This document shows, in pieces, positions 9,346-27,333 of a DNA stretch of 64,000 nt (position 1 is the stretch's first letter; each line of letters starts with the position of its first letter). The stretch is from Cyclobacterium plantarum (lineage in GTDB: Bacteria > Bacteroidota > Bacteroidia > Cytophagales > Cyclobacteriaceae), in the NCBI RefSeq assembly GCF_011290685.1, contig NZ_JAANYN010000009.1, forward strand, positions 1-64,000. Reading direction: 5' to 3'. The notes beneath the pieces were generated by a model. The model worked only from the letters and a program-made list of their open reading frames with translations. It had not been told where the DNA came from and searched no databases. The position numbers were made by a program, and so were the translations under genes.

Positions 9346-9567
9346 CTGAATTCCTTTAAAACAAGTGGACAATGGAGCGTATTTTCAATTGGTCCCAGAA
9401 GCTAGGCAATCTCTATTACTTAATCAAAAAAAGTAAGTGATTTTTCTTCCTTCGAAAATTTTGAAGGTTTTTTCATTCCTCCCCAGTCTGCTTTTTCAAA
9501 ATAAAACGGGGGAACGATTTTCTAACAACAAATTAAGACTTTTTTATCTTTTTTATTAGATTTGCAT

Positions 9568-11788: not shown

Positions 11789-12874
11789 TTATTCCGGCAG
11801 GGCTTTGCGCAAAAAACGAAGCCAGTTGCCATGGAAAATATGGTCAATATCCTGACTGGAATAGCCTCTTCTATCCAGGATTTCTTCATATTTTTGAAGG
11901 TCTGCGATAGAATTCATGTCCCAGGGTGACTGCTCGGTACCGAAAATTCCATCCAGATCACTTCCTATTCCTATGTGCAGGCAATCACCCGCAAGTTGGC
12001 AAATATGATCCCAGTGGTCTACCAGCTGCTCCAGCCTGATGTCCAGTTGCCAGGGATCGGATATAGTATCAATAAAGCGGATGTCCATGGCCCAGCAATC
12101 CAACATGCCTCCGATTACAGCCCCTCTTTCTACCAGCCGTTTGATCTGTTCATCTGTCAGTTGCCGTTGGTTGGGCACGATTTTTCTTACATTGTGGTGA
12201 CTGGCCCAGACCGGACCATCATAGCTATCCAGGGCCTGATCAAATCCCTGATCCGTCAGGTGGGTGACATCCAGAATCAGCTGGTATTGTCCCATCACCT
12301 TAAGCAGTTCCTTTCCCATGGAAGTAAGATTTCCTTCCGTTTTGGTCCCCGGAGCATACCTGCCGGGACCAAAATGCGACAGCCCCAGGGCCCTCAGGCC
12401 ATAGGCGTGGGCTTTTTCCAGGTAGGAAACATCCACCAGGGAGTCTGCCCCTTCCAGGTTGAGCAGGTAGCCAATGGGCTTGTTCTCATCCGGAAAAGAA
12501 TCGTCTTTCCACAGGTCTACCATTTCGTCCAATGTTACCCGGTTGGTGATTTGTTTCATTTCTCCCAGGGCTTCCATTTCCCGGTACCAGGCCAATTGGG
12601 CCTGGGTCATGGCCCAGGCTTGCTGGGGCGATTTCCACCCTGCAAGGGCTGAATCGGGAGGAGAATACCGGGCCAGTTGGGTGGCCACCACCAAACCAAT
12701 TTTGCCTTTTCTCAATTCAGGCAGGCATACTGTACCCTTGCCCCTGTCGGGTTTGTCCGGCAGATGCATTTCTGCTTTCCGAATTTCAACCAGAGGCATG
12801 CGCAAGTCCCGGTTCCATTCAATGGCGTTCATGGCCAGGTCAAGGTGGGCATCAAAAATCAGCCTTTTTTTCAT
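11789..12874 (-). CDS. Membrane dipeptidase, peptidase family M19
   Basis: A 361-residue protein with the metal-site signatures of renal-dipeptidase-type amidohydrolases: DAHLD (His10, Asp12), LLNLEGADS with the bridging Glu, DVTHLT, ASHHNVR and GIGSDLDG. The start is fixed by an ATGA overlap with the upstream ridA-like gene (ATG 12874-12872 inside its TGA), so the longer reading from 12901 is rejected. M19 enzymes hydrolyse dipeptides, including D-amino-acid-containing ones, and some act on other amides. No signal peptide, so cytoplasmic. In operon B it probably opens an amide bond of the pathway substrate or an intermediate; this is inference. Confidence 0.85.
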   Translation of the reverse strand: MKKRLIFDAHLDLAMNAIEWNRDLRMPLVEIRKAEMHLPDKPDRGKGTVCLPELRKGKIGLVVATQLARYSPPDSALAGWKSPQQAWAMTQAQLAWYREMEALGEMKQITNRVTLDEMVDLWKDDSFPDENKPIGYLLNLEGADSLVDVSYLEKAHAYGLRALGLSHFGPGRYAPGTKTEGNLTSMGKELLKVMGQYQLILDVTHLTDQGFDQALDSYDGPVWASHHNVRKIVPNQRQLTDEQIKRLVERGAVIGGMLDCWAMDIRFIDTISDPWQLDIRLEQLVDHWDHICQLAGDCLHIGIGSDLDGIFGTEQSPWDMNSIADLQKYEEILDRRGYSSQDIDHIFHGNWLRFLRKALPE

Positions 12875-13266
12875 GTACTTTGGGGGATCCTGGCGATACA
12901 ATCAATTTCCACCTTCAAACCTTCTGCCAATACGGATTGCACGGTAATTCTGGCCGGTTTGGTCTCTTGAAAATAACCAGCATACACTTTGTTGTACCTG
13001 TCAAATTCTTTAATGTCCGCCAAATGAACCGTACATTTGACGATTTGGTCCATGCTTCCACCGGCAGCTTCCACAATGGCTTTGATATTTTCCAAAGTTT
13101 GGGTGGTTTCTTCCTCAATAGTTCCCAACCTAAATTTGGAGGTTTCAAAATCCACTGATGCCTGACCGCTGACAAAGAGAAACCCATCTACTAATATCGC
13201 ATCAGAATAAGCACCGGTATCAAAACCCTTGTCTCGTTTTGGATGAATAATTTTTTTCATGGTCAT
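12871..13266 (-). CDS. RidA/YjgF-family enamine/imine deaminase
   Basis: A 131-residue protein with the RidA trimer fold pattern. The residues linked to deaminase activity in RidA are kept: Arg106 (PARITVQ) and Glu120 (KVEIDCIA). RidA proteins hydrolyse reactive 2-aminoacrylate-type enamines/imines made by PLP enzymes. In this regulon a class III aminotransferase and several oxidoreductases could create such intermediates. It lies 25 bp after the SDR gene and overlaps the dipeptidase start by 4 bp. Confidence 0.88.
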   Translation of the reverse strand: MTMKKIIHPKRDKGFDTGAYSDAILVDGFLFVSGQASVDFETSKFRLGTIEEETTQTLENIKAIVEAAGGSMDQIVKCTVHLADIKEFDRYNKVYAGYFQETKPARITVQSVLAEGLKVEIDCIARIPQST

Positions 13267-13291: not shown

Positions 13292-14071
13292 TTACCAACC
13301 TGTCCAACCTCCATCCACCACCAGGTTATGTCCCGTAATGAAAGAAGAAATATCAGACAGCAGAAAAGCAACAGGTCCTGATACCTCACTGGCATCGCCT
13401 GTCCTCTGTAAAAAGGTTTTCTTTTCCAGCTTTGCAATAAATTCCGGATGTTTTTTCTTTACCTCCAAATTGGGGAAAGGACCCGGCGAAATACAGTTGA
13501 AGCGGACATTTTGAAGCCCATAGTACATGGCCAGGTATTTGGTCATTTGAATAATGCCTGCCTTTCCCACCCCATATTCTATGGGGTTGGGATTCATGGG
13601 CGCATCATATAATTTGGGGTCAGGAACCACCATTCCATACATGCTGCCAAAAAATACTACGCTTCCGCCCCCATGGGTTGCCATGGCCTTGCCCATTTCT
13701 TTTCCCAAGATAAAATTAGCCGTAAGGCCCGAATGATTTACCGCATCAAATTCTTCACCAGAAAGGTCCTCCATTTTTTTGACCGTAGAAGCATAAGCCA
13801 GGTTGACGAGGCCATCGGGAGGGCCGTGTTTTTTGATTTGTGTAGCAATAAATTCCATAAGGGCACTTTCATTTCCTATATCCAGGGTTTCCGGAACCAT
13901 TTTGTCTGCAAAACCATGTTCTTCGCCCAGCTTAAAGGCTTTACTCTCCAGGTCTGCGCAAATCACCTTTGCACCCAATTCGGTCAGCCGTTTCATTACA
14001 GCTACCCCAAGGTAACCCGCACCGCCTATTACCCATATCCATTTGCCCTTTAATCCGAATTGATCTTTCAT
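13292..14071 (-). CDS. Short-chain dehydrogenase/reductase, catalytically complete
   Basis: A 259-residue classical SDR: cofactor loop GGAGYLG (residues 16-22), catalytic Ser143, Tyr166 and Lys170 (EYGVGKAG), and the closing VVDGGWTGW. The acidic residue after strand 2 (CADLE, Asp40) suggests NAD(H) preference. A stretch of about 20 extra residues before the catalytic Tyr (PDPKLYDAPMNPNP) resembles the subgroup that includes PtmA-type sugar-modifying SDRs; that is my recollection, not a search. It is a close paralogue of the adjacent SDR 20 bp upstream, which lacks the catalytic Lys. Confidence 0.88.
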   Translation of the reverse strand: MKDQFGLKGKWIWVIGGAGYLGVAVMKRLTELGAKVICADLESKAFKLGEEHGFADKMVPETLDIGNESALMEFIATQIKKHGPPDGLVNLAYASTVKKMEDLSGEEFDAVNHSGLTANFILGKEMGKAMATHGGGSVVFFGSMYGMVVPDPKLYDAPMNPNPIEYGVGKAGIIQMTKYLAMYYGLQNVRFNCISPGPFPNLEVKKKHPEFIAKLEKKTFLQRTGDASEVSGPVAFLLSDISSFITGHNLVVDGGWTGW

Positions 14072-14091: not shown

Positions 14092-14868
14092 CTAAGCATT
14101 GAGTCCCCCATCCATCAGGATATTTTCACCATTGATGTAGGCCCCTGCGTCGGAAGCCAATAATACCGCAAGACCTTTGATGTCATCATTGTTGGCCATT
14201 CTGCCCAGAGGTACTTTTTTACAATAATTGTCCAAAAAGGCCTGTGGCTGATGGTTGAACAGCCCTCCCGGGGAAATACAATTGAATCGGATGTTTTTCC
14301 CCGCATGGATTTTAGCCAGGTAACGGCTGAGGTTAATCAGCCCGGCATTGTGGAAGAAATAATCCGGAGGTAAATCACCCATATCCGTACCTTCATAATT
14401 GGAAAGGTCAGGGCCTTTCATCCCCATCATGGAGCTAATGCTGATGACGGATCCGCCACCAGAAGCTATGATGCTTTCGATCATGGTCCGCAGCAAATCC
14501 ACCATACCGGTAGCATTCACCCGCATCGATTCGGCAAACTGCTCCAAAGGGCCATTGTAGCCCTTCATGGGACGGGATACGGCATTGTTTACAAATACAT
14601 CTAACCTCTTGTACTTTTCTTTCAAATCAGCAGCAAATTGCTTTACCGATCCGGGATCAGCCTGATCCAATTCCATGGGCTGTACGTCCAGACCCCTGCT
14701 TTGAAACAGGGCAGCAGTTTTTTCTGCAGATTGCAGGTTTCTGGAGGTGGTAATGACTGTACCCCCAGCTTCCGCCATGCCTTCTACCAGACATTTTCCA
14801 TATAATCCGGATCCTCCCGTAACCACGATTACCTTCCCCTTCAGGTTAAATAAATCCTTTATATGCAT
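14092..14868 (-). CDS. Short-chain dehydrogenase/reductase-like protein lacking the catalytic lysine
   Basis: A 258-residue SDR fold: TGGSGLYG cofactor loop (residues 17-24), VNNA (93-96), Ser145/146, Tyr170, and a C-terminal LMDGGLNA. The catalytic YxxxK motif reads YFFHN, so Lys is replaced by Asn174; the codon (AAT) is clear on the minus strand. Without the lysine, normal SDR proton relay and NAD ribose binding should be impaired. The protein shares the long insert before the Tyr with the neighbouring SDR (13292-14071), so the two may work as a heteromer or this one may bind without catalysing. It starts 1 bp after the stop of the next gene in operon B order, indicating tight coupling. Confidence 0.85.
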   Translation of the reverse strand: MHIKDLFNLKGKVIVVTGGSGLYGKCLVEGMAEAGGTVITTSRNLQSAEKTAALFQSRGLDVQPMELDQADPGSVKQFAADLKEKYKRLDVFVNNAVSRPMKGYNGPLEQFAESMRVNATGMVDLLRTMIESIIASGGGSVISISSMMGMKGPDLSNYEGTDMGDLPPDYFFHNAGLINLSRYLAKIHAGKNIRFNCISPGGLFNHQPQAFLDNYCKKVPLGRMANNDDIKGLAVLLASDAGAYINGENILMDGGLNA

Positions 14869-14869
14869 A

Positions 14870-15799
14870 TTAGTTCAATGAAAATTTTTTTCCTCCATTT
14901 TCAAAACTTTCCTGAGCTCCAATTACCGTTTGAATGATGGCCTTGGTTTTACTGAAATCCAACCTGGATGCGCCGGATTCCACCGAACGGATAAATTCGA
15001 CCAGGTTGTCCCGAAACATGGCATATGAATTTTTTATTTCCACCAGGCGCCATCCATTTGTACCAAAAAAAGAAAGCTGAAAAGTACCGCAAATATCCTG
15101 AAACAGATGGACAGTGGTTTTCAGGCCATTGGCAAATCCAATGACCACAATATCCTTGTCTTTCTCGCCCACGTGCTGTACCCATAATGGGCTGGGATCA
15201 TCCAGGGTGGCAAACAAGGCCTCCAGAAGGTGAACGCCATACTTTTTCCAATCTTTTTTGCCCACAGCTGTGACTAAATGGAGTGGACCCAAAGCCTTGA
15301 TCTCTGTTTTGATCGTCCGGCATTCTTGTGCATAGCGCATGGAAGAACAAGACATCAGGAATTTACCAGATTGATGCTGATCTTTAAAATAGGCCAGATC
15401 TTCCCATGTAAATGCCAGTGGTTTATCAATAAATAGGGGAATACCAGCTTCCAAAAAGGGTTTGGCCATGTACACATGGTTTTCGGGGTCATCCCTGGCC
15501 AGGATTACTGCATCTATCTCTCCTATCATGGATTCCATTTGCTCTACCACATGGGAAATACCCGAATGCCTGGCAATATCCGTACTGATCTTCAGGTCCT
15601 GGGTCCAAACATGACTTACCCTTGCTCCCGGAATGCCCAGGGTATCCTGATTGGCCTGAAGGTAGTCTCCAACTGCAGGATAGCCAGCCTCCGTAATGCG
15701 CTCCCGGTCAAACTCCCCATTAATTATGGCAGACCAGGAATATGGATGCGCATTCCCTGGGCTCATGCCGATCATTCCAATATTCAACATAGTGATCAT
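14870..15799 (-). CDS. Gfo/Idh/MocA-family oxidoreductase
   Basis: A 309-residue NAD(P)-dependent sugar-type dehydrogenase homologue. The N-terminal Rossmann loop is atypical (GMIGMSPGNAHPYSW) but the family lysine signature is present as IDKP (Lys126), equivalent to EKP. DAVILARDDPENHVYMA matches the usual cofactor-side helix. The C-terminal half is short compared with the usual 330-380 residues. Family members oxidise or reduce sugars, inositols and related polyols. Operon B gene 3, 5 bp after the aldo/keto reductase. ATG 15799 chosen; Met4 at 15790 is possible. Confidence 0.8.
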   Translation of the reverse strand: MITMLNIGMIGMSPGNAHPYSWSAIINGEFDRERITEAGYPAVGDYLQANQDTLGIPGARVSHVWTQDLKISTDIARHSGISHVVEQMESMIGEIDAVILARDDPENHVYMAKPFLEAGIPLFIDKPLAFTWEDLAYFKDQHQSGKFLMSCSSMRYAQECRTIKTEIKALGPLHLVTAVGKKDWKKYGVHLLEALFATLDDPSPLWVQHVGEKDKDIVVIGFANGLKTTVHLFQDICGTFQLSFFGTNGWRLVEIKNSYAMFRDNLVEFIRSVESGASRLDFSKTKAIIQTVIGAQESFENGGKKFSLN

Positions 15800-15804
15800 T
15801 TAAT

Positions 15805-16755
15805 TTATTCCAACCAACCCATACGGTCCCAATAGGGAATATCAATAAATTCCGGATCGGGAAAAGGTATCGCCCCTTCGAGCAAAGACGCTGCAATCAA
15901 CTCCATATCAGCCGTTTCCACTGCCCTATCCAGGTATTCCTGTTTGTCAATGCCGACCAATACAGCGGCAAACTGTGGCTGAGCCAGCACAAAGCGAGTG
16001 GCATATTCCGGAAGTTCCATGTGGTGACTTGCAGCCAGATTCCTGTATTTGGAAATATGCCTTTCTATTTCGGCAAGTGGAGCTTGCATATGAACGCCCC
16101 GTCGAGTCAACATGCCACGCAACAGGACTGACCTGGCCACCAGCCCAACTCCCTGATCCCCTGCCAATCCAAAAACTGCAGATTGCCTTTGGTCCAGCAA
16201 GTTGAAGGGCAACTGCACTACCTGCCAGATTCCAGACCGGATGGCCCTCTCGGATTCGGAAACCGAATAGGTAGATGCTCCAATGCTCCTTGCCCATCCT
16301 TTCTTTTGAATATCCTGGAATACCCGGCAAACGGTTTCGTGCTGCAGGATTTCCAAATCGGCCTGGTGCAACATCCATACATCCAGGTAATCCGTACGCA
16401 GGGCCTTCAGGCTTTCCTCCAGGGATTGGTAGATCAAAACAGCCAATTGCTCCGGATCAGGCAGCCGCCCTGAAGCGTCCCGCAGGTGCCGGCACTTGGA
16501 ACAAAGCACTACCTCTCCCCTGATTCCCCGGAAGGCCTCTCCCATCAGTTCCTCACTCTTTCCATACATCCTGGCCGTATCAAAAAAATTGATACCCTGA
16601 TCCAAGGCATTTCTCAGCAAATGTACGGCCTCGTTTTCGTTCAACATTTCCTGTTCATTACGGATGCCTGGTCCATAAGGTAAGCCAATTTCCACTCCGC
16701 CAAATGCTATTTCGGAAACTGAGATACCGGTATTTCCAAGTAGGTTGTATCTCAT
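15805..16755 (-). CDS. Aldo/keto reductase
   Basis: A 316-residue TIM-barrel oxidoreductase with the complete catalytic tetrad: Asp59 and Tyr64 (FFDTARMYG), Lys87 (LCSKC), His130 (WMLHQ). GQPF-type and family end motifs are in place. The closest general type is the L-fucose/D-arabinose dehydrogenase or general stress AKR group. It overlaps the upstream aldolase gene by 4 bp (ATGA), which shows translational coupling in operon B. The substrate is unknown; an aldehyde or keto-sugar from the neighbouring aldolase is a reasonable guess. Confidence 0.88.
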   Translation of the reverse strand: MRYNLLGNTGISVSEIAFGGVEIGLPYGPGIRNEQEMLNENEAVHLLRNALDQGINFFDTARMYGKSEELMGEAFRGIRGEVVLCSKCRHLRDASGRLPDPEQLAVLIYQSLEESLKALRTDYLDVWMLHQADLEILQHETVCRVFQDIQKKGWARSIGASTYSVSESERAIRSGIWQVVQLPFNLLDQRQSAVFGLAGDQGVGLVARSVLLRGMLTRRGVHMQAPLAEIERHISKYRNLAASHHMELPEYATRFVLAQPQFAAVLVGIDKQEYLDRAVETADMELIAASLLEGAIPFPDPEFIDIPYWDRMGWLE

Positions 16756-17567
16756 CCTTTGTAATATTGATCAGCAGGACCACCATTCTGTTCCTCATCC
16801 TTAAAACCAGTCAACAGCCCCTTACAATATTGTGTCAGGGCGATAACGTCAGCACCAATGCTGATAAACTGATAACCCATGGACTGATAGGCCTGTACTT
16901 TGTCCGGGGTTCCGGTGGTACCGGCAAATTTCCCGTATTTCAGTGCCACCTCCACTACCTTTTTCCTGGCGGAAACAATCTCAGGATGATTCATTTCTCC
17001 AGGAGCGCCTATGGCCTGGCTAAAATCTCCGGGGCCAAAAAAAAGCATGTCGTAACCCTCAAGGCGGGCAATGTCTTCCAATCCTTCCAGCGCTTCAGGA
17101 TCCTCAATCTGAAGGATCACAAAACGCTGCTGATTGGCATCCTTCAGGTATTGCTTGAAATCAGCAGCAGTATATGCCCCATCAGCATTGCCCCCGTCAA
17201 TGGCCCGCATGCCCAATGGATGAAACCGGGTCATGCCCACCACCTTTCGGGCATCGGCCACATTCATCACATGAGGGACCATGATTCCCGTGGCATCCAT
17301 TTCCAGGGGCTTGACATAATCACTGTAACTGCCCCTGCACACTCTCACCAGTGTATCCTTATTTTGAGATTTGGCCGCCCAAATCTGAGCAGCAAGGATA
17401 GACCAGTCCTGCCCTATGTGCTCCTGATCCAGCCAGATGCAGTCAAAGCCGGCAAGGGCTGCGATTTCCACTACACGGGCATCGGCCAGATTCACTTTAA
17501 AACAAGCCACATTTTCACCGGACCGCAATTTTTGCAGGACCAGGCTGGGTTTCATGGATACAGTCAT
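16752..17567 (-). CDS. HpcH/HpaI-family aldolase
   Basis: A 271-residue class II aldolase of the HpcH/HpaI/citrate-lyase-beta type. Key residues: His50 in WLDQEH, Arg75/Arg78 in VRVCRG, the metal ligands Glu155 (QIEDPEA) and Asp181 (FGPGDFS). The family cleaves 2-keto-3-deoxy acids or 4-hydroxy-2-oxo acids to pyruvate or glyoxylate plus an aldehyde. First gene of operon B: 55 nt upstream lies the operator module shared with operon A. Met5 (17555) is an alternative start that would give a more usual leader length. Confidence 0.87.
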   Translation of the reverse strand: MTVSMKPSLVLQKLRSGENVACFKVNLADARVVEIAALAGFDCIWLDQEHIGQDWSILAAQIWAAKSQNKDTLVRVCRGSYSDYVKPLEMDATGIMVPHVMNVADARKVVGMTRFHPLGMRAIDGGNADGAYTAADFKQYLKDANQQRFVILQIEDPEALEGLEDIARLEGYDMLFFGPGDFSQAIGAPGEMNHPEIVSARKKVVEVALKYGKFAGTTGTPDKVQAYQSMGYQFISIGADVIALTQYCKGLLTGFKDEEQNGGPADQYYKG

Positions 17568-17584
17568 ATAGGTTTTTGCTTGAT

Positions 17585-17648
17585 CAAATGTAAGGCTGTC
17601 GCTACACCATAACTATTACTTTTATCTGGAAAGATGGTACTTTTTTTC
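17585..17648 (-). promoter_or_regulatory. Operon B promoter and putative AraC-type operator
   Basis: On the minus strand, TACATTTG (17592 to 17585) matches the Bacteroidota -7 box exactly; transcription would start near 17578. The block 17610-17648 matches 26196-26234, upstream of operon A, at 31 of 39 positions by my count, including TTATCTGGAA and TGGTACT. In both promoters the TTATCTGG element starts exactly 37 nt from the -7 box (17622 versus 17585; 26208 versus 26171). The remaining gap, 17568-17894, holds nothing else I can support. Confidence 0.65.
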
Positions 17649-17894
17649 CAATCCGTAAAGAACAAGGACCTGCCTGAACTCCAAATTACCAGATTGATAT
17701 GAATAAAAAAAATCGGCCTTGCCTGGCTCGAACTTCAAATCCAAATTAACTGGTGGAAATATAAATATCTATTTCGGCAAGCTGAAGCCCAAGGAGTTTA
17801 AATCCGGGAATAGTTAATTTTTCCATTATTTTCAAGGCGTTGATTGGTTACATTTGAAGTGTTCGGATTGAAGCAGAATACCGCTTACGGAAAT

Positions 17895-19178
17895 TTACCT
17901 GCTAAACGAGGCATTGGGGCGGGTCCAGCGGATTTTGGCCACATAGACGCTGCCATCGCTGCCCTGCTTTTCCACTCCCTCAGGCTGCATCCATTCCGAT
18001 ACCGTTACCCAGGTTTCATCCGGGCTAACTGCGGTCACTCCGAAATTACCCAGTCGCGCTCCTCTTTCGGGAACCAGGATCCTTTCTGTATGGCGAATCA
18101 CCTCCAGCTTTTCGGGATCTACCCTGGCCATAAAGAGGGGTGCCCGGTGTCGGAACACATGGTCATTGCCTGCTCCACGGCGGGTATAGACCAGGTAAAG
18201 TGCTTCGCTATGCATCACCCAGTGCTGCTGGGTATTGTAATTGCCCAAATCCGTACCATCATCGAATTTCCAGGGCTGAATAGGTGCGTAATGTAAACCA
18301 TCATCACTATGGGTAACAAACCCCTGATTGTCATTCCGGATGGTAAGGAAATATTTACCCTGAAAGTGTGTCAACGAAGGTTCGTGCAGCCCCCTGCTAT
18401 CATCGTCAATGGACAAGTCATTGCCTTGTTCCAAAAAGCGGAGCGCTTTCCCATCAAAAGCACATCTGGTTACCGTTACCTGGGAGTTGCTTCCCGGGGG
18501 TGTAAAATAAATGGGTAAAAGGATGTTCCCATCAGGTTCATCCCACCGCTGCACGCAACCTGCGCCCGCATTTTGAAATTTTTCATTGTCTCCCATGTCC
18601 AATTTCTCCCAATCAGACCAAAGGTTTCGGTCCGGTTCATATACGGCAAATGCGGTATGGCGGGGTCTTGGGTGGGCCACTTTCCAGTCCTTGGTATAGA
18701 CAATTGTATGCCCGGTACCCAATAGGGTTTTGCTGTCCTTGTGCCAGGTGGGCCAGAAATCACTGGCTGCTACCGGTCGATCCTCTCCCTCCACCTGTTC
18801 GAACCTGGGAGCCAGGGATGGCAGGGCTTCCGGTGCTGTCCAGTTGGCCCCTCCATCATCCGAATGCATGCCAAACATCCCTTTAAACACATCGCTCCCG
18901 GAAAGATCCAGGGTATTCATCGTCATCACCATGCGGGGCATACCCTCTTTTACAGCTTCAGGAACGACCCCTGCTCTGGGATGCACCCAGCATTTTTCTC
19001 CATCAAACAAACGGGTAGGAACCTGTAGGTCAAGGCTGTAATTCAGTGCCTCCTGTACTGGAAAAGACCTGTCCTTATTGGCAAAAAGGGAAAGCGGAGC
19101 CATACCGGAAAGTGTTATTCCTGCGATCAGGCTATCCTTTACAAAAGATCTTCGGCTTTTTGGGCTGGCATGGTTCAT
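17895..19178 (-). CDS. Tat-exported sialidase-fold (BNR/Asp-box) protein
   Basis: A 427-residue protein with a twin-arginine signal (SRRSFVKDSLIAGITLSG) and a beta-propeller with Asp-box-like turns (SDDGGANWTAP, HSDDGLHYAP). RDN and glutamate/tyrosine residues typical of sialidases are hinted at but I cannot assign a full active site. Tat export implies folding before export. It sits between operons A and B with its own 391-bp upstream and 327-bp downstream gaps, and I found no copy of the shared operator near it. It probably releases or binds a glycan-linked substrate in the periplasm; sialidase activity is not shown. Confidence 0.7.
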   Translation of the reverse strand: MNHASPKSRRSFVKDSLIAGITLSGMAPLSLFANKDRSFPVQEALNYSLDLQVPTRLFDGEKCWVHPRAGVVPEAVKEGMPRMVMTMNTLDLSGSDVFKGMFGMHSDDGGANWTAPEALPSLAPRFEQVEGEDRPVAASDFWPTWHKDSKTLLGTGHTIVYTKDWKVAHPRPRHTAFAVYEPDRNLWSDWEKLDMGDNEKFQNAGAGCVQRWDEPDGNILLPIYFTPPGSNSQVTVTRCAFDGKALRFLEQGNDLSIDDDSRGLHEPSLTHFQGKYFLTIRNDNQGFVTHSDDGLHYAPIQPWKFDDGTDLGNYNTQQHWVMHSEALYLVYTRRGAGNDHVFRHRAPLFMARVDPEKLEVIRHTERILVPERGARLGNFGVTAVSPDETWVTVSEWMQPEGVEKQGSDGSVYVAKIRWTRPNASFSR

Positions 19179-19569
19179 AAGGTATTCCGGGATTTTGATT
19201 TAAGAGTTAAAATACAAATTTTATTCTTTACCTCTAAGATTGTGTTGCAGTTGTTCCAAGGCTTTTTTCAGGGTTATTAAATTCTAAGGTAATTCATTTA
19301 GTTTTTAATTCTATTGGATGTACAAGAAAAATTTGGCTAACCGACGGGCATATTTACTCAACCCAAAATTTGCATTAATTATTCTCCTTGATTCCCTTCT
19401 GGCATCACGTTGGATTACTTCAGGCAGTTTTCCTGAATCACCTAAAAAAATATTTTCAATCAATCAAAGTAATTGTCCACCTGATTAATTATTTTTTACT
19501 AAGCCTTAAAACCAAAACGGTAACCTTGAAAAAAGGGCTGATTAGCAACTTTCCCTTTTTCAATACGCA
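19179..19569. other. Intergenic region between the symporter and Tat propeller genes
   Basis: A 391-bp AT-rich gap that should contain the promoter of the propeller gene at 19178 and the end of operon A. I saw no exact -7 box, no copy of the operon A/B operator and no clear terminator. A + strand frame of 92 codons crosses into the symporter gene and is not credible. Confidence 0.45.
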
Positions 19570-22086
19570 CTATTGTTGGCTTTCTCTGGAGGCTTTGAAA
19601 ATAGCCGCTTCCCTGCTTCTTTTGGCCATGGTCTCTTTGTTTCCCAATAGCCAGTGGTCGAAATAACTGAAAATGGATCCCGATACCATTCCTACAATAA
19701 GCGATACCGGCAGGATAAAAAGCACCTCAATGCCCATAATTTTATAAAATGAGATGGCCACAGCGACAGCTACACTGAGAAGCCCGCCCACAAAGGTGCC
19801 CCTGGCCGTGGCAAAGGGCACAAACAGGGCCATGAAAAACAGGACAAATAAAGGTGAAACAAATAAATTCACCACCTTGACGATCACATCGTACAGGTTT
19901 CCCTCCACCTTGCTGATCAACACGCTGAGGAACAGGGCAAATATCCCCACAAAGAAAGAAAGATTGCGCACCCTTGACATTTGGTTTTTAGGGGCTTTGT
20001 AATTTTTTGTAAACCTTTTGATCAGGTCTTCGGAAATTACGGAAGAGGTGCTGTTCAGTCCGGAAGAAAGACTGGACATGGCCGCTGCCAGTATGCCTGC
20101 AGCCACCAGGCCGGAAATACCCACAGGCAGGCCTACCAGGATAAATTTAGGGAACAACTGGTCGGCATGGCTGGCTACCGTTTCTCCTGGATTCAGGTAT
20201 TGGGGAAATTCAATAAAATAAGCCAGTACAGCAAGCCCCACCAGGCCAAGTAGAAATTGGACAACAAAGTTGGTGAGCAGGGAAACCCCAAAGGTTTTTC
20301 TGGCAGTATGTAAATTTTCGGTGGCCAAAAATCGCTGAATGGACATCTGGTCTGAGCCAGAGGAAGCCACATACCAAATAAAGGTAGTCAGCAGGGCATT
20401 GCCTATGGTCAGCCGCTCCATGGCATCCAATCCTAATTTTAGCTCTCCCCAGTGCCCCAACCACTCACCGGGAATCCAGGAGGTAAAAGATCCCAGGGAA
20501 TAACTGACCACCAGCAAGGTAAGGATGGCTCCTCCCATTAACACGCCGGATTGGATCACATCGGTAAAAACCACCGCTTTCAGGCCTCCCAGGGTGGTGT
20601 AAAATATGGTTATCCCCATCAGCAAAATACTGATCAGCAGGGTATATTTGGAATCAAATCCGAAAATGGCCAATATGGCAGTATGGACGGTAATGAAAAT
20701 TATGGTACCCATCCAAAGAAAACGCAGGGACAGGAAAAAGAAAGTGGCCAGCAAACGGATGCTGACACCCAGGTTGATTTCCAGGATCTCATAGGCACTG
20801 GTGACCCGCAATTTCATGAATTTGGGAATCAAAAACCAGCCTACCACATAATACACCAAAGGAAACACCAATATTCCGGATAGGATCACCGGCCCATATT
20901 TTACCATTTCACCCGGATAGGAAAGGTAGCTTAGGGAGCTTAACAAGGTGGCAAATAGGGACAATCCAACTGCGACAGGATTCATCTTTCCTCCTCCCAA
21001 AAAATAGTCTTTTTCATTTTTGTTTTTTTTGGAAAAATAATAGCCGATACCCAACATGCCACCCAGATAGCACAGCACCACCAGCCAATCACCAAATGCC
21101 AGGCTGTATGTCTGACTTCGTTCAAGTGTCAATATACCATAGGCAGCAGTAGCCCTGATATCTGCCTGATCCTCTGGTTTAATGATCGCATTATCTCTCT
21201 TACCCTCCTCCAATGGGGGGTATTTATTTTCCAGCAGCTCCACCAATACCGGTAAATCTTCCGGCAGGCCACTCTTTCCCAGTGCAATGGCCATTTCCAT
21301 TCGCTCTGCTTTGCCTGGAGATTTCGCATAGGCCAGCAATTCGTCCCTTATAGATTTCCAGGTTCCCCCTCCTTTTTCTGATACAGGTGCATGGATATAG
21401 GCCGCTGACAAAAGGTATACCTTCTCCATTGCCCCCTCAGGCAGTGCCCGTGCTTCCGCTGCAAGTTCCTTCCATTGAGTAATATTTCCCTCATTTCTCA
21501 GGGCATAAGCCGCTTGCATGCGGACGAGATCTCCCAATTCCCTGTCCAGAGCCAAGTCCATCAATGCCGAAACACCAGCTGCCGACGCAGTACCCTGAAG
21601 TGTGCTCCAGAGGGTGTAAACATACAGCGAGTTGATAGGACCGGCCAATACCTCCCTTGTGGCCTCCGGAGCCCATTCGTTCAGGTTTTGACCCAATTTG
21701 GCCATGGTTTCGGCTGCATGTACCCTGTCCGTTCCCTGCCTGTCCTGAAAAGCCTTGGTGATTTTCTCCAGGTACTCGTTGGCTAATGCCGGATCGGATT
21801 GGGCCAAAACACGCCAAATTCCTATCCTGTACGGGGATTGGGAGCCCCTTTGCCGCTGCTCTTCCAAAAATGCCTCCTTTACGCCCTCCGGATATCCCAA
21901 CCCAATTTTGTATTCTGCTGCATGCACCGTCACCCAGGATTCCTGGTTTTCCATCACACTGTCCAGTTCCTGCACAGCGTTTTGCCTCAATGATTCAGAA
22001 AGCATTGCACCTTTATTGTTACAGCAAAAAGCCATAAACAGCCAGAAAAAAAGCAGGAATCCAGAAATTGGGTTTTTTAAGGTCAT
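19570..22086 (-). CDS. HEAT-like periplasmic domain fused to sodium:solute symporter
   Basis: An 838-residue inner-membrane protein. Residues 1-22 are a hydrophobic leader with Cys21-Cys22 (MAFCCNN). Residues about 28-325 are alpha-helical repeats of HEAT type (MQAAYALRNEGN, RMEMAIALGKSGLPEDLPVL, IRATAAYGILT). From about residue 333 a typical SSS transporter begins: GDWLVVLCYLGGMLGIGYYF, KDYFLGGGKMNPVAVGLSLFA, then about 13 membrane segments, including AAGILAAAMSSLSSGLNS, the conserved SSS segment near the Na site. Ordinary SSS proteins lack the N-terminal domain. It starts inside the stop of the PhyH gene (TGATG). As the operon A transporter it should import the regulon substrate with Na+; the HEAT domain may dock a protein or ligand outside the membrane. 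Confidence 0.85.
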   Translation of the reverse strand: MTLKNPISGFLLFFWLFMAFCCNNKGAMLSESLRQNAVQELDSVMENQESWVTVHAAEYKIGLGYPEGVKEAFLEEQRQRGSQSPYRIGIWRVLAQSDPALANEYLEKITKAFQDRQGTDRVHAAETMAKLGQNLNEWAPEATREVLAGPINSLYVYTLWSTLQGTASAAGVSALMDLALDRELGDLVRMQAAYALRNEGNITQWKELAAEARALPEGAMEKVYLLSAAYIHAPVSEKGGGTWKSIRDELLAYAKSPGKAERMEMAIALGKSGLPEDLPVLVELLENKYPPLEEGKRDNAIIKPEDQADIRATAAYGILTLERSQTYSLAFGDWLVVLCYLGGMLGIGYYFSKKNKNEKDYFLGGGKMNPVAVGLSLFATLLSSLSYLSYPGEMVKYGPVILSGILVFPLVYYVVGWFLIPKFMKLRVTSAYEILEINLGVSIRLLATFFFLSLRFLWMGTIIFITVHTAILAIFGFDSKYTLLISILLMGITIFYTTLGGLKAVVFTDVIQSGVLMGGAILTLLVVSYSLGSFTSWIPGEWLGHWGELKLGLDAMERLTIGNALLTTFIWYVASSGSDQMSIQRFLATENLHTARKTFGVSLLTNFVVQFLLGLVGLAVLAYFIEFPQYLNPGETVASHADQLFPKFILVGLPVGISGLVAAGILAAAMSSLSSGLNSTSSVISEDLIKRFTKNYKAPKNQMSRVRNLSFFVGIFALFLSVLISKVEGNLYDVIVKVVNLFVSPLFVLFFMALFVPFATARGTFVGGLLSVAVAVAISFYKIMGIEVLFILPVSLIVGMVSGSIFSYFDHWLLGNKETMAKRSREAAIFKASRESQQ

Positions 22087-22823
22087 CAGGTGCTTTGGTT
22101 CAATGCTTTCACATAGGCCGCTTTGGCAGCAACATCCTCCATGGCAGAATCACCAAAATAAATCAGGCCCAAGGCCTTGCGGCTTCTTTTGCTACTGGTA
22201 TTTGGGCTGGCCCGGTGGATCGTCAAAGCATGATGTACGAGTAGGTCTCCGGGTTCCGCAGGAAAATACACTTCATTTTCCAAATCTGAAGGCAAACCAA
22301 AATCAGGAATTCCTTGTGAAAAACCGGGGGTTTGGGTGAGCGAATGGTCCCGCATGCCCTTTTTGTGTGAACCCCGCACATAACTTACCCAGCCGTTTTC
22401 CTGATCCACCTCCTCCAGAGCCATCCACATGGTAACCGCCGACATTGGATTTAGCATAAAATAATAACCATCCTGATGCGGAGGAGTCGCTTTTCCTATT
22501 TTGGGAGGTTTGTTAAAATACTCCAGTGTTTTACCGATTACCTTTTCTTCAAGTAGTACTTCAGCAAGCCTCGTGAAGGTACTTTCAAAGAGAATATCTG
22601 CAAAAAAGGTATCGTATAGCTGCAAGTCCTGCAGCATTTTTAAAGTTGATGGATCGCCTTTTGCTTCAAACTTGACGTGTTCAGGGGGCAGTTTGGAAAT
22701 TTTTGAAATTATGAAAGCCTTTAGCTTTTGGTTGATTTCTGCTACCTGATCCCTTTTCAAAAAACCGGGCATATGCAGGTATCCATCTTCGTCAAATGAT
22801 CTTTTTATTTTTAAGGCATCCAT
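22086..22823 (-). CDS. Phytanoyl-CoA dioxygenase (PhyH) family Fe(II)/2-oxoglutarate oxygenase
   Basis: A 245-residue jelly-roll dioxygenase. The iron triad is visible: His116 and Asp118 (PPHQDGYYF) and distal His203 (TIHRASPN). The 2-oxoglutarate-binding Arg is probably in SKRSRKAL. GSHKKG and PGDLLVHHALT are also family features. Members hydroxylate a wide range of small molecules, often next to a carboxylate, amine or CoA ester. Third-to-last step in operon A order, 5 bp after the dehydrogenase-like gene and overlapping the symporter by 1 nt. Its substrate is unknown, but its place suggests that it hydroxylates the imported compound. Confidence 0.87.
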   Translation of the reverse strand: MDALKIKRSFDEDGYLHMPGFLKRDQVAEINQKLKAFIISKISKLPPEHVKFEAKGDPSTLKMLQDLQLYDTFFADILFESTFTRLAEVLLEEKVIGKTLEYFNKPPKIGKATPPHQDGYYFMLNPMSAVTMWMALEEVDQENGWVSYVRGSHKKGMRDHSLTQTPGFSQGIPDFGLPSDLENEVYFPAEPGDLLVHHALTIHRASPNTSSKRSRKALGLIYFGDSAMEDVAAKAAYVKALNQST

Positions 22824-22828
22824 TTTTT

Positions 22829-23809
22829 TTACTTTTTGTGGTTATTGCTGGTATTTTTCTGCTTAGCGGTAACCCCCACTTCTTCCGGATAATCCCCTTT
22901 GGGAAAAGGGTACCTGTCCATAAGGCTTCTCATCTCCCGGCTGAATTCCAAAAAGGATAATTCCAGCTTTTCGTTTTCATCAACCGTATGGGTATAAAAT
23001 CCCTGGGAAGTTCTACCTTGATCGAGGGATATCTCCATCAAACTATTGAATTGATCAGGTATTTCCCTGGCCCTGGACAATTCTGGATTGAGGTCTTCCA
23101 TGACAATACCGTAAATAAAAGTACCCATCAGGTCCATGTAGCGGCAATTTCCGGCAAAAGGAAGGTAATATCCCGGATCATTTCTGCAGGCCCGGTCAAT
23201 ATCAGCGACTTCTACGTACCCCTGATCTACAAGAAAAAAAGCTTCCCTGGCCATGGCAGCCATTAAGCGGCTGCGAATCCCCATTCCTCTTTTCAACAAG
23301 TAGGGGTCCTTATCCCAGGTTTCACGTACCAATGTCATCAGGTTTTCTGTCATTTCGGTATCAGTTTGCTGATTGGCAATAACCTCGGCAAAAAGGGTTT
23401 GGTGTGCAGGATAAGTCCAGTTTAAACCCACTAATCTTGAGGGTAACTGCATTTGGTCCTGCAATTGGTCCAGGGTTATGCTTTCTGAATTCAGCGCTAT
23501 TAAAGTATCCTGATTGGCGACTTTTTCAATCTTTCTAAGCATGGCCGCCTTTTCTTCCATCTTTTCCGGAGTCAGGGCCACCACAATGGCGCAATCTGCC
23601 AATTCGGGATGCCCTTCAAGGTTTTTCTCCCATTCCCCGTTGCCCAAACAGGAAAAGCCGGCAATTTCCGCCAGCCGCCTCACCTCACCGGCAGGGTCCC
23701 GTGAAGTAAAGGATTTTACCTGGTGCCCTGCCCTGAGCAGACAACAGACCACGGAGGGGATCATATTGCCCTCGCCAATTACTGCCACTTTACATTTCAG
23801 GTAATTCAT
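22829..23809 (-). CDS. 3-hydroxyacyl-CoA dehydrogenase-like protein lacking the catalytic histidine
   Basis: A 326-residue protein with the two-domain layout of the 3-hydroxyacyl-CoA/L-gulonate dehydrogenase family. It is clearly paralogous to the gene at 25126 (for example GIRSRLMAAMAREAFFLVDQG versus the matching helix there). Its catalytic region reads VGLNWTYPA, so the family His is Asn130. The cofactor loop is IGEGNMIPS, missing the third Gly, and the SNTS motif reads LNSES. It is therefore either inactive as a dehydrogenase, a regulatory partner of the active paralogue, or has another reaction. It overlaps the aminotransferase by 4 bp (ATGA). Confidence 0.75.
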   Translation of the reverse strand: MNYLKCKVAVIGEGNMIPSVVCCLLRAGHQVKSFTSRDPAGEVRRLAEIAGFSCLGNGEWEKNLEGHPELADCAIVVALTPEKMEEKAAMLRKIEKVANQDTLIALNSESITLDQLQDQMQLPSRLVGLNWTYPAHQTLFAEVIANQQTDTEMTENLMTLVRETWDKDPYLLKRGMGIRSRLMAAMAREAFFLVDQGYVEVADIDRACRNDPGYYLPFAGNCRYMDLMGTFIYGIVMEDLNPELSRAREIPDQFNSLMEISLDQGRTSQGFYTHTVDENEKLELSFLEFSREMRSLMDRYPFPKGDYPEEVGVTAKQKNTSNNHKK

Positions 23810-25116
23810 ATGTCTTGTGCAGTTAATACTTCTCTGGCCAACCCCAGGGCCTGGTCAATTTCCTCCTCAGTGTGTACCGCGCTGATATACCAGAGCCCGC
23901 GACCAATGACCCTCAGACCACGGTCATGCAAGCGGGAAACAAATGTTTTTAATTTTGTTGTATCAAATTGAAGCACATCCCGGAAATCTACTGCTTTTTC
24001 CTGGCTGGTAAAACCTGTATGCACCACAGGGCCAATACCCGAGACCAACAGCTGATGGCCGGTTTCTTTGGCAATTTTGCGGAGGCCCTGCCTGAGTCTT
24101 TCTCCCAGAGCAAACATTGCGGGGTAGGGATTCTCCCTTTCCAGAATGCTTATGGTGGCAAGCGCAGCCGCCACGGTGGGATTTCCGGTGTTCATGGTCC
24201 CGGCATGAATGACCCTGGCTGTAGAAATTTCCTCCATCCATTCCTTTTTACCAACAATGGCACTGATGGGATATCCACTCCCTATGGCCTTGGCAAAAAC
24301 GGCCATGTCCGGTTTAACTCCAAAAAATGCCTGCGCCCCACCCAGGCCAAGCCGAAAACCGGTAATGACCTCATCAAAAATAAGGGCAATCCCATAATCG
24401 CTGCACAACGCTCTCAGTCCCTGCAGGAAACCCTCTTTGGGAGGAATGCAGCCATTGTTGCACATGACCGGTTCCGTAATAATGGCAGCCATTTCCTGAT
24501 GGTGTTTTGCCACATGCTGCTTTACCAGATCCAAATCATTCCAGGGCAACAGAAAGCTTTCCTCCTTCGCACCATCGGGCAAACCCTGAGTCCAGGGATG
24601 CATTTGGGGACTCTCCCGGGGACCCATGGCCTCCGGTGAAGGGCTGGAAATACCAAAGCAAACGTTATCCAGCCAGCCATGGTAATGCCCTTCAAAGCGT
24701 AAAAACTTTTGCTTCCCGGTTTTGGCCCTGGCCACCCTCAGGGCAGTTTGTACCGCTTCCGAGCCGTCCAGGCAAAAACGCATCAGCTCGGCAGCAGGGA
24801 TGATTGCTTGCAGCTTTTCTGCCAATTCAATTTCTTTGGCATGCTGCCCTGCATACAATTGCCCCTGTAAAGATTCCTGGTGAACTGCCTCCAGCACTTC
24901 TGGATGGGAATGCCCAAGGATCAGGGGACCCTGGCTCAGGGTGAAGTCCAGGTATTCATTGCCATCTACATCATAGATTTTGCTGCCTTTGCCGTGGGTA
25001 TAGAAAAGGGCATGGGGGTGATTGTATTTTCTAAACTCGGAGGAAACCCCTGCGGCCAGTACTTTTTTTGCCCTTTCCAGCCAGGCTGCAGATGATGAAT
25101 AGCTAAACTTTGTCAT
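23806..25116 (-). CDS. Class III PLP aminotransferase (glutamate-1-semialdehyde-aminomutase-like)
   Basis: A 436-residue cytosolic fold-type I enzyme. PLP residues are intact: LDGSEAVQTALR (phosphate site), HYHGW, FDEVITGFR with Asp248, and Schiff-base Lys276 in FAKAIGSGYP. Overall it resembles glutamate-1-semialdehyde 2,1-aminomutase, but genuine HemL genes lie among haem genes, and the catabolic operon here argues for an omega- or amino-sugar-type aminotransferase instead. It lies between two dehydrogenase paralogues, 9 bp after the first and overlapping the second. Likely reaction: removal of an amino group to give an aldehyde or ketone for the neighbouring oxidoreductases (inference). Confidence 0.87.
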   Translation of the reverse strand: MTKFSYSSSAAWLERAKKVLAAGVSSEFRKYNHPHALFYTHGKGSKIYDVDGNEYLDFTLSQGPLILGHSHPEVLEAVHQESLQGQLYAGQHAKEIELAEKLQAIIPAAELMRFCLDGSEAVQTALRVARAKTGKQKFLRFEGHYHGWLDNVCFGISSPSPEAMGPRESPQMHPWTQGLPDGAKEESFLLPWNDLDLVKQHVAKHHQEMAAIITEPVMCNNGCIPPKEGFLQGLRALCSDYGIALIFDEVITGFRLGLGGAQAFFGVKPDMAVFAKAIGSGYPISAIVGKKEWMEEISTARVIHAGTMNTGNPTVAAALATISILERENPYPAMFALGERLRQGLRKIAKETGHQLLVSGIGPVVHTGFTSQEKAVDFRDVLQFDTTKLKTFVSRLHDRGLRVIGRGLWYISAVHTEEEIDQALGLAREVLTAQDI

Positions 25117-25125
25117 AATAAAACC

Positions 25126-26094
25126 TTATTCGTTTTTTATTTTTTGGTAATTATCTGCCAGCTGGTAAATCTCTTTATTGAATTTCGCAAAGGCATTTTC
25201 CCATGCCCTGGCCTCCTCAGGGCTATAGGCGTACAATCCCCTGGCTTGCTGAACACCTCTCACCTTTCCCGCCACCATTTCCTGCATCATTTCAGGTACC
25301 CTGGAAGTATTGCTCAATTTCGGAAAAACCCGCTGAAATGTTTCCCTAAAATCGGATAATCCCATTTGATCCATCCTTTCGAATATCCCCATAAAAGTCA
25401 TCCATGAACCGGCATCATAACGGAAAGCTTTATCTGTGTCTTCTATACTGGTTTCACCGGATTCGATCAAATGGAAAATTTCCCGGTAAACGGCATACAT
25501 CAGGCGGTTGGTAACAAATCCCCGGATATCCTTTTGCAAAAAGGTAGGTTCTTTCCCCCACAAATGAGCCAATTCATAGACCCAGTTGGCATGGCTATCC
25601 GCTGTTTTCTCTCCTTTGGTAATTTCCATAAATCGGGTCATGTAAGCCGGTTCTGCCCAATGGATTCCCAAAAAACGCCCAGGTTCGGGTACCATATCCT
25701 GCAAAATACTTACCGGAATGGCAGATGTGTTGCTGGAAATCACGGTATCCACTTTGGTTTGGTCTGCAATTTTTTGGTAAACTCGGGATTTCGCATTTTT
25801 GTCTTCAATCACGCACTCCTGAACCAACCGGCAGTTTTGCAATATGCTATAATCCTCTGAAAGGGTTATTCTTTTCCAATAATGAGGCTTGGATTGCTGC
25901 AAAAGTCCACTGTCAGCTGCATGCTGTAGCAGCTGGGCAATGGTTTTTTTTGCATTTTCTAATTCATTTTTCACAGGAGCCACCGCTTTTACCGGGTGAC
26001 CTGCAATACATAGTGCCACCGCGATACTGCTGCCCATCATTCCCAAACCTACCACTCCTGTTTCTATTTCGGAAATATCCATTGGCTTCCTCAT
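25126..26094 (-). CDS. 3-hydroxyacyl-CoA dehydrogenase/L-gulonate-3-dehydrogenase-family oxidoreductase
   Basis: A 322-residue NAD-binding enzyme read from ATG 26094 (one codon after an in-frame TTG). Rossmann loop GLGMMG; family motif ISSNTSAIPVS; catalytic-pair residues His145 (GIHWAEP) and Glu157 (FMEIT). The C-terminal helical dimerisation domain follows (FVTNRLMYAVYREIFHLIESG). The family covers 3-hydroxyacyl-CoA, L-gulonate and carnitine dehydrogenases, so a small hydroxy acid is possible as well as an acyl-CoA. First gene of operon A. Its paralogue at 22829 lacks the catalytic His. Confidence 0.85.
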   Translation of the reverse strand: MRKPMDISEIETGVVGLGMMGSSIAVALCIAGHPVKAVAPVKNELENAKKTIAQLLQHAADSGLLQQSKPHYWKRITLSEDYSILQNCRLVQECVIEDKNAKSRVYQKIADQTKVDTVISSNTSAIPVSILQDMVPEPGRFLGIHWAEPAYMTRFMEITKGEKTADSHANWVYELAHLWGKEPTFLQKDIRGFVTNRLMYAVYREIFHLIESGETSIEDTDKAFRYDAGSWMTFMGIFERMDQMGLSDFRETFQRVFPKLSNTSRVPEMMQEMVAGKVRGVQQARGLYAYSPEEARAWENAFAKFNKEIYQLADNYQKIKNE

Positions 26095-26170
26095 CAATAC
26101 CTTTTCATTAATTTAAAAATTATACCTGCTATGATTGAATTTGCACTTAGCGGATGGTTTAAAATGTAAT

Positions 26171-26234
26171 CAAAATTATCAGGAACATCGAAAACTTACT
26201 ATTCATATTATCTGGAATGCTGGTACTATCTTTC
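26171..26234 (-). promoter_or_regulatory. Operon A promoter and putative AraC-type operator
   Basis: On the minus strand, TAATTTTG (26178 to 26171) is a TAnnTTTG -7 box, giving a start near 26164 and a 70-nt leader. The block 26196-26234 contains two direct TTACTATT/TGGTACTAT half-sites (TACTAT at 26197 and 26224) and matches the operon B block at 17610-17648 at 31 of 39 positions, at the same 37-nt distance from the -7 box. Confidence 0.65.
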
Positions 26235-26352
26235 ATAAAGGGTCAACCGCATTTTATTATTGCTGGCAGCAAATGGGTTAAAAAGTTGCGACATTTTCTT
26301 AAATTACTGACATCCATTCAAATAAAGTGATGGTAAAACCATACTTCAACTG

Positions 26353-26386
26353 TTACTATTCTTTATATTTATGGTACTATTTTTCA
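26353..26386. promoter_or_regulatory. Third copy of the putative AraC-type site, upstream of araC
   Basis: TTACTATTC (26353-26361) and TGGTACTATTTTTC (26373-26386) repeat the half-sites of the operon A operator, with TACTAT starts 21 nt apart (26354 and 26375), two helical turns. It lies about 70 nt upstream of the araC ATG at 26455 and may serve autoregulation. I found no exact -7 box on the + strand. Confidence 0.55.
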
Positions 26387-26454: not shown

Positions 26455-27333
26455 ATGAAATCGATAGAAGTAAGATTACCCCAGGATTTCGATAAATCCT
26501 TTATCGTGTTTAAAGAAAAAGGGCAATATTTCCCCTGTCCCTGGCATTACCATCCGGAGTATGAGTTGGTTTTGGTACTCAAGAGTCAGGGTAGAAGGAT
26601 GGTGGGTGACCATATCGGCTACTTCCAGGAGGGAGATTTGGTATGCATGGGCCCCTATCTGCCCCATGTCTGGGTCAATGAACCCAATTTTGTAAATGGA
26701 CAGGCCGGCTATGAGGCAGAGGCCATTGTGATTCACTTTCAAAAAGATTTTTTGGGCGAAGATTTTCTGAAAATCCCTGAAATGGAAACCTTGAAAAATT
26801 TTCTGAGATTGTCAAAGCGGGGCCTGGCCTTACAAGGTAAAGCCAAAGAGCAAATTAATGCCTTGATGAAAGAAATGATACATATGAATGGCATTCAGCG
26901 CTTGTCCAGCTTGCTTTCCATATTTGATATCCTTTCCCAAACCAGGGAATATGAACTGCTGGCCAGCCCGGGTTACCTGAATCAGATTGACCCCCAGGGC
27001 TCAGACCGGCTGGATAAAATAAAGGCCTATATTCATAAAAATTTCGACAAGGACATCTCCTTACCGGAAGCAGCAGCCATGGCCAATATGGCCGTGACCA
27101 CTTTTTGTAATTTCTTTAAGGAACAATACCGGATTACCTTTGTAGAATACCTGCATACGGTCCGGCTGGGTCATGCCTGTAGAATGCTTTCGGAAACGGA
27201 CATGAACATAGTAGAAGTGGCCTTCGAATGTGGTTTTAACAACCTGGCGAATTTTAACCGGCAATTCAAAAAGTATAAAAAAATGACACCCACTCATTTT
27301 CGGAAAATGGTCAACATGCAGGAGGTGGCGTAG
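26455..27333 (+). CDS. AraC-family regulator with N-terminal cupin sensor
   Basis: A 292-residue regulator divergent from operon A. Residues about 20-120 form a cupin-type ligand pocket (CPWHYHPEYELVLVLKSQG, GDLVCMGPYLPHVW). Residues about 188-288 are the double helix-turn-helix of AraC/XylS: SLPEAAAMANMAVTTFCNFF, FVEYLHTVRLGHACRML, IVEVAFECGFNNLANFNRQF, ending KKMTPTHFRKM. The conserved operator copies before operon A, operon B and its own gene make it the obvious candidate regulator. The inducer is unknown; a sugar-like ligand fits the cupin. The gene is followed directly by the repeat block that starts at 27351. Confidence 0.88.
   Translation: MKSIEVRLPQDFDKSFIVFKEKGQYFPCPWHYHPEYELVLVLKSQGRRMVGDHIGYFQEGDLVCMGPYLPHVWVNEPNFVNGQAGYEAEAIVIHFQKDFLGEDFLKIPEMETLKNFLRLSKRGLALQGKAKEQINALMKEMIHMNGIQRLSSLLSIFDILSQTREYELLASPGYLNQIDPQGSDRLDKIKAYIHKNFDKDISLPEAAAMANMAVTTFCNFFKEQYRITFVEYLHTVRLGHACRMLSETDMNIVEVAFECGFNNLANFNRQFKKYKKMTPTHFRKMVNMQEVA

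Follow-up and report, generated by a model that had tools for sequence, protein, structure and literature searches.

The 64,000-nt stretch of Cyclobacterium plantarum DNA studied here (contig NZ_JAANYN010000009.1, positions 1 to 64,000; hereafter the window) contains two operons, A with five genes and B with eight, and a gene, araC, for a cupin-AraC protein (Table 1). Judged from the sequence, operons A and B are very probably switched on together by this AraC regulator to break down a compound, and the cupin-AraC protein most likely activates both operons and also regulates itself. In its full form the best explanation, in which we place high confidence, is that the protein encoded by araC would bind direct repeats, activate operons A and B and control its own gene.

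Proposed operators and promoter geometry

The first-pass annotation of the window had described two blocks of 39 nt lying at an equal offset from a TAnnTTTG box, and this was borne out. The blocks, at 17610-17648 and 26196-26234, are identical at 31 of 39 positions, and the 37 nt given as the distance from block to box is correct, since TTATCTGGAA starts 37 nt from the low end of the box at both operons. When block 1 was used as a query against the 64-kb window, block 2 was the best match (31), followed by the third site (28, in the register starting at 26347) and then by a match of 23. The best match to block 1 in Markov shuffles of the window (n = 200) averaged 23.7 with a maximum of 28. The match between the two blocks is therefore beyond chance, because 31 tops all 200 shuffles, whereas the 28 of the third site alone would not be. 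This third site, reported before araC, does have half-sites 21 nt apart, but its extent is corrected from 26353-26386 to 26351-26386. As for the proposal that the 39-nt block is the operator, a conserved core exists, but it does not coincide with the block as drawn. More distant relatives retain CTnnTACTTTTAT and, after it, TGRTACTATYTTTCA, a direct repeat with a spacing of 21 nt and at some sites of 27 nt. Conservation of TTATCTGGAA is restricted to the clade and near relatives and is lost further out.

Homologues of araC were collected with their surroundings (the best 80 of 575; L003-L082), and motifs were learned in two runs, the first seeded from the window and the second unseeded. The unseeded run was given at most 350 nt of upstream sequence from each of 45 orthologs (L011-L056 minus L047), a training set without loci from Cyclobacterium, Lunatimonas or Lunatibacter. 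Its result was the motif cTgATACTATtTTtCA with 401 bits (60 random starts), compared with 98.7, 95.5 and 104.2 bits for three Markov-shuffled controls (40 starts each). On both strands of the window this motif scored highest at 26220 (23.2 bits), 26371 (22.0 bits) and 17634 (12.6 bits), with the fourth match at 10.1 bits, so that the operon A site ranks first, the araC site second and the operon B site third. Because the training set lies outside the clade, the three annotated sites were recovered without information from the clade of the window.

Promoters of the Bacteroidota have the -33/-7 consensus TTTG/TAnnTTTG (PMC7366714 and PMC6847099), and the -7 element is numbered T-12 to G-5 (PMC6847099). 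By this numbering, transcription should start near 17580 for operon B and near 26166 for operon A. A scan for sigma-70 promoters gave the chance level, 28 found against 28.0 expected, with a model that does not cover Bacteroidota promoters. The window and L003-L082 together hold 143 sites above 12.5 bits. CAAAnnTA, which is the -7 box as it reads on the opposite strand, begins 49 nt before the 16-mer at 41 of these 143 sites and 50 nt before it at 13, and any other distance occurs at most three times; in 20 column-permuted matrices, between 0 and 1 of the top 143 matches had a box at 49 or 50 nt. The 54 boxed sites are spread over 39 sequences, which are related and not independent. A TACTWTT-like half-site (at least 6/7) occurs at a spacing of 21 nt in 39 of the 54 and of 27 nt in 12, both being possible at one site, and the 27-nt half-sites come mostly from Cyclobacterium and Lunatimonas. 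A TTG or TTTG stands 17-27 nt before the box in 4 of the 54, a count made without a control. In motif orientation the consensus is CAAAa.TA ... ttCT..TAcTtTtat.t..AtT..TGaTACTATtTTTCA, and at operon B the proximal half-site would span roughly -34 to -45 in the numbering from the predicted start. A TAnnTTTG on the opposite strand (peak at 17 nt, 7 of 143 sites) was rejected as a promoter because the half-site TACTTTTG itself fits TAnnTTTG.

The annotation had further proposed that the block be sought upstream of the orthologous operons and the box distance compared in relatives; the conserved core does occur there. Within the 12 Cyclobacterium genomes, the weight matrix finds a site of 12.6-22.0 bits before operon B gene 1 in 12 of 12, the gene starting 66-67 nt from the match start of its operator (it is a remnant in G007). 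Before operon A gene 1 (at least 53% identity) a site of 15.3-23.2 bits occurs in 10 of 10 genomes, including four in which araC is not adjacent. The two remaining genomes have homologues of this gene with 38-40% identity, and no site above 10 bits was present at their loci. The exact core TGRTACTATYTTTCA has 16 matches over the 12 genomes (in 7 of them) and none in the reversed control. Of these, 15 belong to the upstream regions of operon A, operon B (one decayed copy) or araC, and the sixteenth (L083, in the genome of the window) is inside a stop-free stretch of 844 codons. In G002 operon B is on a separate contig from operon A and araC, and its operator is still present. In other Bacteroidota genera the operator stands before the same genes with the same offset to the -7 box.

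Scans of the genome of the window revealed no further target that stood out, part of the weak matches having been examined. The core with at most two mismatches has 130 matches there against 84 in the reversed control. Thirty of the 130 were retrieved, comprising the two window sites and 28 other loci (L083, L086-L112); a -7 box at a distance of 49 or 50 nt is absent from all 28, of which 22 fall within a stop-free stretch of at least 200 codons. The half-site pair pattern alone is not above chance, because its 9 matches (4 of them on the three window sites) compare with 15 in the reversed control. The box-plus-core pattern has 34 matches in the 12 genomes, of which operons A and B account for 22; since the reversed control has 24, the 12 others are, as a group, at or below chance. 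In two genomes (G001:C1:431737-431796 and G005:C110:13058-13117) a -7 box is accompanied by a core variant with 21-nt spacing, TATACTTTT...AGATACTATC. Both genomes also have a second araC paralog of 68% identity, and the variant possibly marks a paralogous regulon. The idea that the shared blocks are chance or duplicated sequence without function could draw on the two copies of the original observation and on these looser patterns, which rise barely or not at all above their controls; it has a negligible probability, because the sites are conserved at orthologous genes, keep a fixed distance to the box and emerge again from an independently learned motif.

The regulator and the probable binder of the operator

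The AraC protein matches PF00165 (1.2e-10) above the cut-off, as it does PF12833, and its residues 174-289 match AraC-type PDB chains. Its N-terminus has a weak cupin match (PF07883, E 6.3e-4), which at 19.8 bits is below the curated cut-off of 27.2. Homologues were divided into close orthologs (at least 54% identity, n = 56) and distant homologues (below 50%, n = 24). Of the 56 close orthologs, 45 have an operator above 12.5 bits in the 500 nt upstream of araC; of the 24 distant homologues, in whose loci the background is about 0.01 per 500 nt, 1 has. The close orthologs with an operator comprise 36 of the 45 members of the training set and 9 of the 11 non-members. The two groups also differ in the first helix-turn-helix region, which we take, from AraC and MarA structures, to be the recognition helix. 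In the close group this region reads T-x-F-C-N-F-F-K, with T215 in 100%, C218 in 96%, N219 in 93% and F220 in 98%, and in the distant group the majority residue is different at positions 215, 218, 219 and 220. Of the 12 genus genomes, 10 have a close araC (at least 75%) together with operon A gene 1 (at least 53%), and G007 and G011 have neither.

Several results weigh against the AraC protein as the regulator of both operons through these sites. The loci derive from related species and are non-independent, and in 11 of the 56 close orthologs the 500 nt upstream contain no site that exceeds 12.5 bits. The operon B operator of the window is the weakest of the three, its core matching at 13 of 15 positions with two departures from the consensus. 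The operon A operators of Cyclobacterium and Lunatimonas have a weak 21-nt half-site, their stronger second half-site being 27 nt away. G001, G004, G005 and G010 have operators at both operons and none within 400 nt of araC, which in these genomes is 75-77% identical and away from the operons. The main result against the AraC protein alone reading the operator comes from G007 and G011, which carry the operon B operator and in which identity to the best full-length homologue of AraC is 37% and 34%, respectively; operon B of G011 looks intact as far as seen. Because this operator persists in two genomes without a close araC, the identity of the binder is something that we infer.

It might be that the sites are real and belong to one regulon, and that another AraC-family protein, such as the 34-37% paralog, mainly binds at operon B. 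We consider this quite improbable. The operator kept in G007 and G011 and a full-length 34-37% homologue in G007, G011 and the genome of the window would fit it, but the core is found upstream of araC itself in close orthologs and almost never in homologues below 50%, the DNA-binding helix differs in the distant homologues as a group (in an alignment without the genus paralog), and an internal deletion of operon B in G007 fits decay after loss of the regulator. On contig C44 of that genome (L116, L157), pieces of B1, B4, B7 and B8 follow one another behind the operator and the -7 box, and neither a close araC nor operon A gene 1 is present. The AraC protein of the window is for us the probable binder at both operons.

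On its operon side, the operator next to araC lacks a -7 box at the distance of 49 or 50 nt, and inspection by eye of the window found no clear TAnnTTTG between this operator and the araC start codon. In Dyadobacter and Sphingobacterium an inverted core lies 20-30 nt before araC (L036, L037, L039, L044; L046, L048, L050-L052), which possibly leads to autorepression there. Dyadobacter loci (L037-L040, L044, L045) also have a core-like match, mostly CTRATACTATATTTCA, without a -7 box. It is found about 28-64 nt beyond the point where the araC match ends, in the space that separates the 3' end of araC from that of the ceramidase-like gene.

Operon genes and linkage

The annotation had placed the 13 operon genes and the regulator in one regulon, and the conservation of the operator at the same genes and the linkage of A and B genes to araC support this. 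Linkage was scored by tblastn with thresholds of at least 40% for operon A genes and at least 45% for operon B genes, in a retrieved stretch of at most about 21 kb. Among the 56 close araC loci, 24 have A and B genes, 14 have B genes only, 8 have A genes only and 10 have neither; of the 24 distant loci, one has A and B genes, one has A genes only and 22 have neither. A single cluster next to araC mixes A and B genes in Larkinella, Dyadobacter, Spirosoma and Rhabdobacter. In relatives, an operator with a -7 box stands before genes for SusC/SusD pairs, an MFS transporter, a HisD-family dehydrogenase and a sodium symporter, among others; the names SusC/SusD, MFS and HisD rest on one member per sequence cluster (L015, L030, L037). 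Since the A and B genes are linked and the transporters behind boxed operators vary, one pathway with exchangeable uptake systems is supported. A boxed operator precedes a histidinol-dehydrogenase-family protein in Dyadobacter (L037, L039 and L044, sites 4942, 6506 and 4934; family from L037), and in Spirosoma L034 a relative comes after SusC/SusD.

Table 1. Proposed regulatory sites and genes of the two operons and of araC in the window
Feature	Position	Strand	Details
-7 box, operon B promoter	17585..17592	-	TACATTTG, fits TAnnTTTG
-7 box, operon A promoter	26171..26178	-	TAATTTTG, fits TAnnTTTG
Operon B operator, direct repeat	17611..17649	+	proximal half TATTACTTTTAT 17614-17625; distal core TGGTACTTTTTTTCC 17635-17649; 21-nt spacing
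Operon A operator	26197..26235	+	core TGGTACTATCTTTCA 26221-26235; 27-nt half strong (7/7), 21-nt half weak (5/7)
araC-proximal operator	26351..26386	+	TGTTACTATTCTTTA ... TGGTACTATTTTTCA, half-sites 21 nt apart
araC, AraC-family regulator, 292 aa	26455..27333	+	PF12833 HTH_18 1.7e-23
Operon A gene 1, 3-hydroxyacyl-CoA-dehydrogenase-type (3HCDH-type) dehydrogenase	25126..26082	-	PF02737, PF00725
Operon A gene 2, class III aminotransferase	23806..25116	-	PF00202
Operon A gene 3, second 3HCDH-type dehydrogenase	22829..23809	-	PF02737, PF00725
Operon A gene 4, phytanoyl-CoA dioxygenase family	22086..22823	-	PF05721
Operon A gene 5, HEAT-repeat and sodium:solute symporter	19570..22086	-	PF00474, PF13646
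Operon B gene 1, HpcH/HpaI aldolase	16752..17567	-	PF03328
Operon B gene 2, aldo/keto reductase	15805..16755	-	PF00248
Operon B gene 3, Gfo/Idh/MocA oxidoreductase	14870..15799	-	PF01408
Operon B gene 4, short-chain dehydrogenase	14092..14868	-	PF13561
Operon B gene 5, short-chain dehydrogenase	13292..14071	-	PF13561
Operon B gene 6, RidA family (Rid family detoxifying hydrolase)	12871..13266	-	PF01042, TIGR00004
Operon B gene 7, M19 membrane-dipeptidase family hydrolase	11789..12868	-	PF01244
Operon B gene 8, neutral-ceramidase-N-domain-like	10380..11747	-	PF04734 marginal, 32.2 bits vs cut-off 32.1

At the operon B operator there is in addition an extra TACTATT-like half-site (6/7) 27 nt from the core. 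Because the operons encode an aldolase, sugar-type dehydrogenases, an aminotransferase, RidA and amide-hydrolase-like proteins, the substrate is perhaps an amino- or amide-bearing sugar-acid-like compound. Of the NCBIfam models listed for the operon genes (at most 25 for each protein), those of the general RidA subfamily and the sodium/solute symporter superfamily alone reached their cut-offs. Between the operons, 391 nt past the symporter gene, is a same-strand gene (17895-19178) with a weak BNR-repeat match below the cut-off; the 12 top-ranked motif matches of the window include no operator in front of it. Beyond operon B are a gene with a CehA/McbA metallohydrolase match below the cut-off (7267-9372) and a cytochrome c gene (9562-9990). 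In four other Cyclobacterium genomes the 75-77% araC likewise has a cytochrome c gene (57-61% identity) in front of it.

Mode of control and known systems

In the mechanism that we propose, the AraC protein (26455-27333) would bind, probably as a dimer, to the direct repeats CTnnTACTTTTAT - CTGRTACTATYTTTCA, spaced by 21 nt and at some promoters by 27 nt. At operons A and B the operator lies just upstream of the TAnnTTTG box, and its proximal half would stand in place of a -33 element. When the ligand is present, the bound protein most likely recruits RNA polymerase in a class II-type activation. The site before araC, which lacks an operon-side -7 box, most likely mediates autoregulation. Ligand control and a single catabolic pathway of 13 genes are, like activation itself, what we infer from the arrangement of sites and genes.

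Two other modes of control are each unlikely. In E. coli araBAD, looping between sites controls divergent promoters, and a DNA loop joining the operon A site to the araC site might similarly control both divergent promoters here. The window and its near relatives do have two sites within one intergenic region, but the distance from core to core varies over 9 sequences (83, 151, 174, 232 and 319 nt) with no constant helical phase. This variability leaves looping with a fixed phase unsupported. The regulator might also repress the operons from these sites instead of activating them. An operator upstream of the -7 box at a fixed distance is the usual layout of AraC-family activators, and the operators here do not overlap the box but lie upstream of it at a constant 49-50 nt. 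Repression fits less well, too, with Bacteroides thetaiotaomicron, in which the rhamnose genes are under positive control of an AraC-family regulator (PMC3870299).

Among open-access papers, none was found on the gene set of operons A and B or on a Cyclobacterium AraC regulon. With slightly less than even confidence, we suggest a joint reading in which the regulon represents an undescribed catabolic pathway over several Bacteroidota families, made up of the operon proteins of Table 1 other than the symporter, with uptake by a symporter, an MFS transporter or SusC/SusD. In the same tentative reading its activator reads a phylum-specific promoter layout, and the operator of Cyclobacterium and Lunatimonas is a composite that combines a 21-nt and a 27-nt half-site. 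That several families share the pathway is judged from the genus names of the relatives, whose family placement we assume. The core with a -7 box at 49-50 nt provides a sequence handle by which genes in many Bacteroidota can be assigned to one putative pathway, including targets remote from the regulator gene and differing transporters. The substrate could be found through the compound that induces the operator-bearing promoters, and, compared with one another, these promoters show clearly how operators are placed on the TAnnTTTG type.

The nearest known counterparts are in Bacteroides. RhaR is an AraC-type sugar regulator with 21-bp direct-repeat operators (PMC3870299), and the likeness, judged by description, is that of an AraC-type regulator with 21-nt direct repeats. 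No rhamnose isomerase, kinase or rhamnulose-phosphate aldolase family was found among the 17 proteins of the region scanned with Pfam. The hybrid two-component systems (HTCS) of B. thetaiotaomicron have predicted direct repeats averaging 21 bp and predicted catabolic and SusC/SusD-like regulons (PMC3878776). An AraC-type DNA-binding domain and predicted direct repeats and catabolic and SusC/SusD-like targets are common to both, whereas the window protein has 292 aa and by Pfam no kinase, receiver or other sensor domain save the weak cupin. In class II activation by E. coli AraC and RhaS, the promoter-proximal half-site is located at the upstream promoter element. The operators of operons A and B resemble this in the position of their proximal half-site, but the promoter is the Bacteroidota TAnnTTTG type, with no sign of a fixed-phase loop. 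The system most likely is an AraC-type catabolic regulon on a known plan with its own gene set.

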